In this document: positions 2,780 through 5,577 of the stretch, one piece after another
Numbering within the stretch: position 1 is the stretch's first letter
Layout of the letters: every line of letters starts with the position of its first letter
Assembly (NCBI GenBank): GCA_021799495.1
Contig: JAJZAI010000009.1
Location: 1 to 64,000 of the forward strand
DNA length: 64,000 nucleotides
Direction of reading: 5' to 3'
From: Deltaproteobacteria bacterium
GTDB lineage: Bacteria; Desulfobacterota; Binatia; Binatales; Binataceae
Made by a program: the position numbers and the translations under genes
Notes under the pieces: model-generated
Told to the model about the DNA's origin: nothing
Seen by the model: the letters and a program-made list of their open reading frames with translations, nothing else
The model's database searches: none

Positions 2780-2811
2780 GGGCGTTCACGCGCGGCCGCG
2801 CGTGAACGCCC
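2780..2811. terminator. bidirectional terminator-like perfect palindrome
   Basis: gggcgttcacgcgcggccgcgcgtgaacgccc is a perfect 32-nt inverted repeat between convergent genes. Confidence 0.6.
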
Positions 2812-2828
2812 TTCGTTAACCCGCCGAT

Positions 2829-4340
2829 TCAGTGAGCGATCGCGGGCGCGCCGAGAAACGGATCGACCGTAACGTTGCCGGCCGCCGTCGCGCAGGCCGG
2901 ATTGCCGCCCGCCCCTTTGCCGCATCCCCAAAAGTTGTTGGCCGCGTTCACCAGCACCTCGGACGCGTTGCCGGTGTTGTTCACGCCCGTACTGTGCGGC
3001 GGGAAATTGTTCTGATGGGCATCGACGATATAACAGGGCGTGCTCGCGTTGACCGGACAATTGTTCCAGCTGGAGGCTCCAACCCAGATGCCATTTGATT
3101 CATTCTTGATGGTGTTGCCGACAATCTTCACTCCGACGATCGGCGAAGCGGTAGGGTCCGCATAGACCTCGATGCCAGTCGGATCGGCCGGACCGGTCTC
3201 GTTCTCGCCGACGGTCGGATCGGCGCCGTTGCCCGCGATCTGATTGCCGACTATCGAGGTGTCGTTCAGCTTTTGTCCGGACGCATGACTATGGAAAACC
3301 ACCCCCGGATTGGCGTTATCGAATAGCTGGTTGTCAACGATGAGGTGCTTGTAGGAGGCGGTTCCAGGCGTGGGCCCGAACACGCCCGTGCCGGCCGCGC
3401 CGTTGCCCTGCGACAGATTGTCCGCCACCGTGTCGTCGAACACGCCGAAGGAAGGCCGGCCGATATTCGTCCCGGCGCCATTGGGCGGATGCGACGGAAG
3501 CGTGATTCCGCAATCGGGAATATTGTGCAGGACCCGGTTATTGCTGACCAGGTTGTCGTGATTGGGGTTGGTTTCGTCGGTGAGCAGGACGCCTCCCGCA
3601 TTATCCATGATCAAATTATCCGTGACGGTCGAAAACGCCACGCCGTCGAGATGGACGCCCTCGCCGCAATCGTCCTGCTCGAAATCGGGCGCCGCCGGAA
3701 CCGAGGGAGTGCTGTTCGTCGCTGGACAAGTCGGCGGCGTTGCGCTCGTGTCGAGCGCTTGATCATTGGTTCGAACGATATTGTCCGAGACAGTGACGCC
3801 GGTGATCTCGGGCGCGGATGGTGAGCAAGGCGCCGCGGGTGATAACGCTAAGGGGCATGACGCCGGCGGGCCTTCGACCAGAATCCCTTCGTGTTCGGCG
3901 TTCTCGATCGTGAAACCGTCGATGGTTACGTCATTGGCCTGGTCGAAGACTCCATTTTGTTGGCCGGTCGCGTCGATGATGGTGTTTTTTGGATTCTGGC
4001 CAATCAACGAAAGTCTGGTCTGGCTCGACGAAATCGTCACCATTTCTTGATACTTGCCGGCCAGCACGAGTACCGTATCATCCGCCGTCGCCGCACCCAT
4101 CGCGGCGCCGATCGTTGAATAAGCGGCCACGCACTTGAGCTTCGCGGCGACTCCCTTTGGAATCGTTCCCGAGGCTTTGACGCACAGAACCCGCGGAGTT
4201 ATTGGCGGAGGAATAATGATAGCTCGCGCCGTCGCGGCGTATCCAAAGATCAACACCACCGCGGCGGCCGCGGCCAGAGCGCGTCTCCCGGCGGACGCGA
4301 GCGCCCATGCTGGCTCGAATGCCAAGTTCAATACCTTCAT
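2829..4340 (-). CDS. secreted right-handed parallel beta-helix repeat protein
   Basis: Signal peptide (MKVLNLAFEPAWALASAGRRALAAAAAVVLIFGYAATARA) followed by repeated NxxxN/VxxNxI beta-helix turns (NRVLHNIPDCGI, DNQLFDNANPGVVFHSHASG, VGNTIKNESNGIWVG). Start chosen at 4340. Confidence 0.8.
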   Translation of the reverse strand: MKVLNLAFEPAWALASAGRRALAAAAAVVLIFGYAATARAIIIPPPITPRVLCVKASGTIPKGVAAKLKCVAAYSTIGAAMGAATADDTVLVLAGKYQEMVTISSSQTRLSLIGQNPKNTIIDATGQQNGVFDQANDVTIDGFTIENAEHEGILVEGPPASCPLALSPAAPCSPSAPEITGVTVSDNIVRTNDQALDTSATPPTCPATNSTPSVPAAPDFEQDDCGEGVHLDGVAFSTVTDNLIMDNAGGVLLTDETNPNHDNLVSNNRVLHNIPDCGITLPSHPPNGAGTNIGRPSFGVFDDTVADNLSQGNGAAGTGVFGPTPGTASYKHLIVDNQLFDNANPGVVFHSHASGQKLNDTSIVGNQIAGNGADPTVGENETGPADPTGIEVYADPTASPIVGVKIVGNTIKNESNGIWVGASSWNNCPVNASTPCYIVDAHQNNFPPHSTGVNNTGNASEVLVNAANNFWGCGKGAGGNPACATAAGNVTVDPFLGAPAIAH

Positions 4341-4449
4341 AACCTGTCCCTCCCACTGGATATGACCCAATTCGTTGAAGGCTCCACGCGCTCCAACTGC
4401 CATGTACAGCGGGTGTGCGCAAAACCAACCATCCTTATGATCAAGAGGT

Positions 4450-4645
4450 GTTAGATCGCTGAATTTACTATGTCAATTAAATTGTAATTGACGTTCGTTG
4501 CGCCCGAATAATGGCGGCCCATTGCGAGCCAAGCGCGCTATGCGCGACCATGCCGGGGCAGATTCATCGCCTCTAGGCCGACGGTCGCGCTCGATTCGGT
4601 TCTGAAAAGTTTTGTGCGAAATGAAGCGCCACGCCTAATGGGGCG
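4450..4645. repeat. copy 2 of a ~195-bp duplicated upstream element (R2)
   Basis: Aligns with 5381-5577. Positions 4564-4645 are identical to 5496-5577 (82 bp); the rest aligns with mostly transition differences. Confidence 0.85.
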
Positions 4646-4727
4646 CGGCCGCGCGTGAACGCCCTTCATTAACCGGCCGATTGAGCGAGCGAGCGCGGGC
4701 GCGCCAAGAAACGGATCGACCGCAACG
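4643..4727 (-). pseudogene. duplicated remnant of the 3' end of the beta-helix gene
   Basis: 85 bp aligning without gaps to 2790-2874 (78/85 by hand). Encodes VDPFLGAPALAR, matching the beta-helix C-terminus VDPFLGAPAIAH*. Confidence 0.8.
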
Positions 4728-4857
4728 ATACAGCTTCGCCCGATAATGCTTCGATGAACATGTTTTGGAGCGGCGAGACGGCGCGCGGTCAAAAAATACC
4801 AACTTCGGGAGGCAGAGAGTTCGAAGGACAAATTACGGTCAGCCCGCGGTGTGAACG

Positions 4858-4898
4858 AAAGAGGCTGGAGCAGCGACTATGCCTGCTCCAGCCTCTTT
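4858..4898. terminator. stem-loop terminator
   Basis: aaagaggctggagcag / ctgctccagcctcttt 16-bp stem with a 9-nt loop, immediately downstream of the 4970-5308 minus-strand gene. Confidence 0.7.
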
Positions 4899-4969
4899 AT
4901 CTTTGATTTGCCCTCAGGTGGGGCTGCGGTCGTGCCTGGCCCGCAACGGTCCCCCTTTATCTCTTGCGG

Positions 4970-5308
4970 CTACGGTGCTGGACAGGAGCCAGCACTCAGT
5001 TTTCCATCGGCCAGTTGCTGGGCCATAACCGCTGCAATCGACCCCGCGCAAAACGGGGGAAGGTTGAACTGCGTTATCAGGTTGCTGAGGATGGTTTTTC
5101 CATCGGAAGTCAAAATAGCCTTGCTAGCATGCGTTCCGGACGCAATTGCCGCTGCGTCGGTGCAAGCTTGGGCCTTGGCGCTGCTTTGCGCCTTAATTAC
5201 GGTGGAGTTCGGAACGCCGCGGCAGGCACTTATAGCGCACCATGCTGGTGCGGCTCCCATAATCGAAAAACTTAACCCTAACGCCACTGAGACATACGAC
5301 TTTTTCAT
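4970..5308 (-). CDS. small secreted cysteine-containing orphan protein
   Basis: MKKSYVSVALGLSFSIMGAAPAWCAISACRG...: signal peptide and several Cys residues in the mature part; followed by a strong terminator. Confidence 0.6.
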   Translation of the reverse strand: MKKSYVSVALGLSFSIMGAAPAWCAISACRGVPNSTVIKAQSSAKAQACTDAAAIASGTHASKAILTSDGKTILSNLITQFNLPPFCAGSIAAVMAQQLADGKLSAGSCPAP

Positions 5309-5380
5309 CGAATTCCTCCCTAGCGACTTTGGTTGTTTTCTACCCGCGTTTTCCATTTTTATCCTCCCAACTAGGCTAAT

Positions 5381-5577
5381 TGTTAGATCACTGAATTTAT
5401 TATGTCAATGAAATCGTAATTTAGGCTTGTTGCGCTCAAATAATGACAGTCTGTTGCTAGTCAAAGCATGTTATGTATAACTATATCGAGCAGACTCATC
5501 GCCTCTAGGCCGACGGTCGCGCTCGATTCGGTTCTGAAAAGTTTTGTGCGAAATGAAGCGCCACGCCTAATGGGGCG
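5381..5577. repeat. copy 1 of the ~195-bp duplicated upstream element (R1)
   Basis: See R2 (4450-4645). Lies directly upstream (minus-strand sense) of the 4970-5308 gene. Confidence 0.85.

Follow-up and report, generated by a model that had tools for sequence, protein, structure and literature searches.

The 64-kb stretch of DNA analysed here (the window) carries two neighbouring units with related upstream regions, one holding an intact gene for a secreted beta-helix protein, the other an unrelated small secreted-protein gene followed by a remnant of the beta-helix gene's 3' end. We judge it fairly likely that the beta-helix gene was relocated, that its unit was then duplicated in tandem, and that the upstream copy (unit 1) was afterwards overwritten by an imported block consisting of a promoter and a gene. 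The rearrangement is clear but one-off, made by known kinds of recombination, and reveals no new mechanism. Because both a relative with a single unit and the gene's old home are preserved, it offers a readable case, from an uncultivated lineage, of a gene being relocated, duplicated in tandem and replaced from one side, and it shows how an orphan secreted-protein gene can end up under a promoter whose homologue serves a resident gene.

Arrangement of the two units

All elements lie on the minus strand, where their order is R1, the small ORF, a beta-helix stub, R2, the beta-helix ORF and a palindrome. Every element described in the first-pass annotation is present, with coordinates good to within a base or two. 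Unit 2 contains the intact beta-helix gene (2829-4340, 503 aa), preceded by R2 (4449-4645), a duplicated upstream region with TTGACA at its downstream end, the promoter part of which is probably the beta-helix gene's own promoter. The gene is followed by a perfect 32-bp palindrome (2780-2811, z = -3.9), a hairpin and likely terminator that is conserved in the sister species G011 and is found, with paired changes, in G016. The protein has an export signal predicted by eye, and resembles secreted parallel beta-helix proteins in passing both Pfam cut-offs (PF13229 Beta_helix, 1.4e-8; PF05048, NosD, 3.2e-8); unlike NosD proper, it falls far under the NCBIfam cut-off, with 42 bits against 300. It is 84% identical in G011, and the nearest named relatives with the gene are the MAGs JADBKU01 (labelled 'bacterium') and DAHZDR01 (labelled Deltaproteobacteria).

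Unit 1 begins with the upstream half of R1 (5490-5577), continues into a block of low GC content (4728-5489) that comprises the promoter half of R1 (5381-5489), the small gene (4970-5308) and a strong hairpin 3' of it (4848-4893, z = -5.3), and ends in the stub (4643-4727). The stub matches the true 3' end of the beta-helix gene (2790-2874) at 92% over 85 bp. It is a relic, its stop codon lost (TGA to TCA) and its hairpin incomplete, with one arm of the palindrome repeated at 4643-4664. Its head-to-tail joint with R2 falls 22 bases inside the 32-bp palindrome and shows 3 bp of overlapping microhomology (CGC). The palindrome had been proposed as the recombination point, and both the position of the joint inside the hairpin and the microhomology are compatible with this; with one event to judge from, a break within the palindrome during duplication is plausible.

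Related genomes and the probable older home of the beta-helix gene

The locus was compared across seven genomes of the genus, of which G000, a draft assembly of 89 contigs, is the window's own. In G011, the same flanking genes, a convergent SDR gene and a gene of unknown function, have between them one R, one beta-helix gene and one hairpin, and both the stub and the small gene are absent from the locus. In G013, G015 and G016, these two flanking genes are only ~70-130 bp apart, and no beta-helix gene lies between them; G014 was left out, since its two flanking genes lie on different contigs. Taken together, the single unit in G011 and the three empty sites suggest, as the simplest reading of these sequences, that the unit arrived in an ancestor from which both G000 and G011 inherited it, the second unit being specific to G000. 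No strain with two full beta-helix genes was found among the genomes compared, nor did R and the stub occur there in unrelated contexts.

The beta-helix gene of G016 lies on another contig, directly 3' of a gene for a 224-aa secreted cysteine-containing protein. An orthologue of this protein (81% identical) is encoded on contig C51 of G000, and the two loci share the intergenic promoter region and leader, being collinear over 989 bp at 81%. Of the beta-helix gene, C51 retains an N-terminal piece only, matching G016 over 111 bp at 84% and the window copy over 144 bp at 83%. Since this remnant is collinear with G016, the beta-helix gene in the window is probably a relocated copy. The decayed remnant, together with the old promoter, lies at 2008-2229 of locus L077 (about 17507-17730 of C51), downstream of a 235-aa secreted protein for which a search of NCBIfam gave no family match at cut-off.

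The number of contigs in the assembly and the near-identical short repeats at the edges of the block could also point to an artefact, in which strain variants were joined at 85-94-bp repeats and the small-gene block and the beta-helix unit are adjacent in no single cell; the lack of a relative of the block elsewhere would agree with this. We regard such misjoining as very unlikely, because it leaves unexplained both the stub-R2 joint within the hairpin and the lost stop codon of the relic, and because both flanks are collinear with G011.

Mosaic structure of R1 and the low-GC block

R1 (5381-5577) and R2 (4449-4645) match at 84%. A search of the 3.43-Mb genome with R2 returned R1 (E = 6.8e-56) and no third copy, so the repeat is neither a chance match nor dispersed, and no further R cassette appeared genome-wide. 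With two copies only in the genome, R was ruled out as a generic dispersed repeat or mobile element; among the seven neighbouring genes scanned, there was also no transposase or integrase gene indicative of an IS or integron cassette. R and the stub gave no match above the gathering score in Rfam.

Similarity between the two copies is uneven, with one difference in 88 positions upstream (5490-5577) and 28 in 108 on the promoter side (5381-5489; Fisher p = 2e-7). When G011 is taken as the reference, 32 sites in the upstream 88 bp unite R1 and R2 against G011 and none unites R2 and G011 against R1, whereas the corresponding counts in the promoter half are 8 and 21. This switch of topology inside R (Fisher p = 3.5e-10) identifies R1 as a mosaic, a recent copy of R2 upstream and an old or foreign homologue downstream, with the change near 5490. 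In the single R of G011, the upstream and promoter halves are separated by ~100 additional bp (about 1687-1787 of locus L066), nearly where the R1-R2 similarity changes.

The stub can be dated in the same way: 14 sites group it with the local 3' end to the exclusion of G011, and at three the local 3' end and G011 agree but the stub differs. Together with the 32:0 count upstream in R, this places the duplication after the split of G000 and G011, unless both pieces were converted. If they were, the two units could have been adjacent before the split, with G011 losing unit 1 by recombination between the R copies and gene conversion in G000 making the upstream half of R and the stub look young. 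Recombination of R1 with R2 would yield exactly the arrangement of G011, and the strong divergence of the R1 promoter half would need no foreign donor; two separate conversions and a loss are required, however, and the base composition of the whole block is left unexplained, so we consider an older pair unlikely. A tandem duplication of R, the beta-helix gene and the hairpin, as first proposed, is supported by the single unit of G011, the youth of both datable pieces, the microhomology joint in the hairpin and the absence of this head-to-tail joint from G011.

Within the promoter half of R1, a 29-bp core with TTGACA differs from R2 at only two positions, compared with 26 of the remaining 79 (p = 0.006), which suggests from sequence conservation that the core was kept working while its surroundings drifted. 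The downstream hexamer matches the consensus weakly, and the promoter is therefore a prediction. Its core occurs three times in the seven genomes compared, in R1, R2 and the single R of G011, and a regulon promoter was ruled out on this count. Nor does this distribution support the recurrent cassette system that had been suggested, given that the R of G011 accompanies a beta-helix gene only and that the small gene is an orphan. That R is a hot spot at which various small secreted-protein genes of this lineage are swapped with their promoter, as a slow, promoter-anchored diversification, seems to us highly improbable; one exchange is visible in the genomes compared.

The block has a GC content of 51.3%, the lowest in the window, where stretches of the same size have 64.1 +/- 3.3%, and each of 2586 segments of the same length from ten neighbouring genes has a higher GC3 than the small gene (0.575). 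On both measures, the promoter half, the gene and its hairpin behave as one foreign-looking block. The first-pass annotation had envisaged the ORF alone being swapped behind a fixed promoter, which these data do not support. The R1 promoter half, being old or foreign, belongs with the small gene, so the exchange seems to have taken in both promoter and gene, and only the upstream half of R1 is left as a fresh duplicate.

Of the 34 changes on the R1 side (5381-5489) that were polarised against G011, 23 are G>A or C>T, and several CG to TA pairs are among the changes. We read this excess as a sign of low-GC origin, though it may instead come from a mutational process. Targeted hypermutation of R1 was disfavoured, as the change ends sharply near 5490 and the whole block, including the gene, is low in GC. 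A more ordinary local process would have unit 1 decaying after the duplication, its promoter half drifting rapidly towards AT and the small gene arising or inserting on the spot, with no import of a promoter. Although those 23 changes follow the usual mutational bias and the small gene has no relatives, divergence sets in sharply at ~5490, beside an 88-bp stretch with one difference, and the promoter core is conserved in a manner unlike decay; we hold purely local change to be distinctly unlikely.

The small ORF (read from 5308 to 4970, with an alternative start at 5356) encodes 112 aa, and has a good ribosome-binding site and a signal peptide recognised by eye; the mature part contains four cysteines. 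The protein gave no match above cut-off in Pfam or NCBIfam, and no relatives in 395 sampled genomes of the phylum, in phages, plasmids or viral contigs, or in a pattern-limited scan of GTDB contigs. Its single-sequence fold prediction is helical and of low confidence (pLDDT 66.6), and gave no structural match; a weak PDB sequence match to a de novo designed protein (E = 0.0015) was given no weight. As the predicted promoters are homologous, co-expression of the small gene with the beta-helix gene is probable. A 186-aa open frame on the opposite strand (4851-5411, +) spans the whole small gene and its hairpin and, though longer than the sense ORF, is probably spurious.

No donor DNA for the block was found in the searched genomes, phages, plasmids or viral contigs. 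With neither a donor nor a strain carrying two full genes, we infer the import of the block and the replacement of the unit 1 coding region by an unrelated secreted gene, the latter already put forward in the earlier reading, from the single unit of G011, the stub and the block itself.

Proposed steps and known systems

Before the split of G000 and G011, the beta-helix gene would have moved, with its promoter and hairpin, to the site it now occupies between the two flanking genes. At its presumed old home, 3' of the gene for the 235-aa secreted protein, G016 still has a beta-helix gene, and G000 a decayed remnant. The unit of R, gene and hairpin (~1.86 kb) would then have undergone head-to-tail duplication in the G000 lineage, through illegitimate recombination that connected mid-hairpin with the upstream end of R at 3 bp of microhomology. 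Finally, the upstream copy would have been overwritten from mid-R to within about 60 bases of the end of the beta-helix ORF. The incoming DNA may have been a 0.76-kb low-GC block containing a divergent homologue of the same promoter and the small secreted-protein gene with its own hairpin. It probably entered by pairing with homologous sequence in R on one side and by illegitimate joining on the other, which corresponds to the pattern known as homology-facilitated illegitimate recombination.

One end of the block indeed lies inside homologous R, at the R1 switch near 5490, as looked for under homology-facilitated illegitimate recombination. The other edge, at 4728, lies no more than about 60 bases short of the end of the beta-helix ORF; beyond 4727 there is no similarity to the lost beta-helix sequence. 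Against the replacement model stand the length of the homologous anchor in R, only ~100-200 bp, the rarity of one-sided events (PMC5361080) and the 8 promoter-half sites at which R1 still agrees with R2.

For T6SS effector modules of Vibrio cholerae, a very similar model has been proposed, in which a gene is displaced by one-sided homology and its 3' end is shifted back (PMC5361080). The locus described here shares with that system an upstream homology anchor, probably a non-homologous downstream joint, a new gene in place of the old one and a leftover 3' end of the displaced gene; it differs in that a tandem copy kept the resident gene, there is no effector-immunity pair, the event is single and no donor was found. 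Tandem duplication without long homology, along with promoter capture by acquired genes, is documented in E. coli and B. subtilis (PMC11111574). As in those duplications, the units here stand head to tail without long homology, meet at a GC-rich microhomology joint and set what looks like an acquired gene next to a duplicated promoter region; unlike in promoter capture, the new gene seems to have brought the promoter half with it, instead of the duplication having captured that half.
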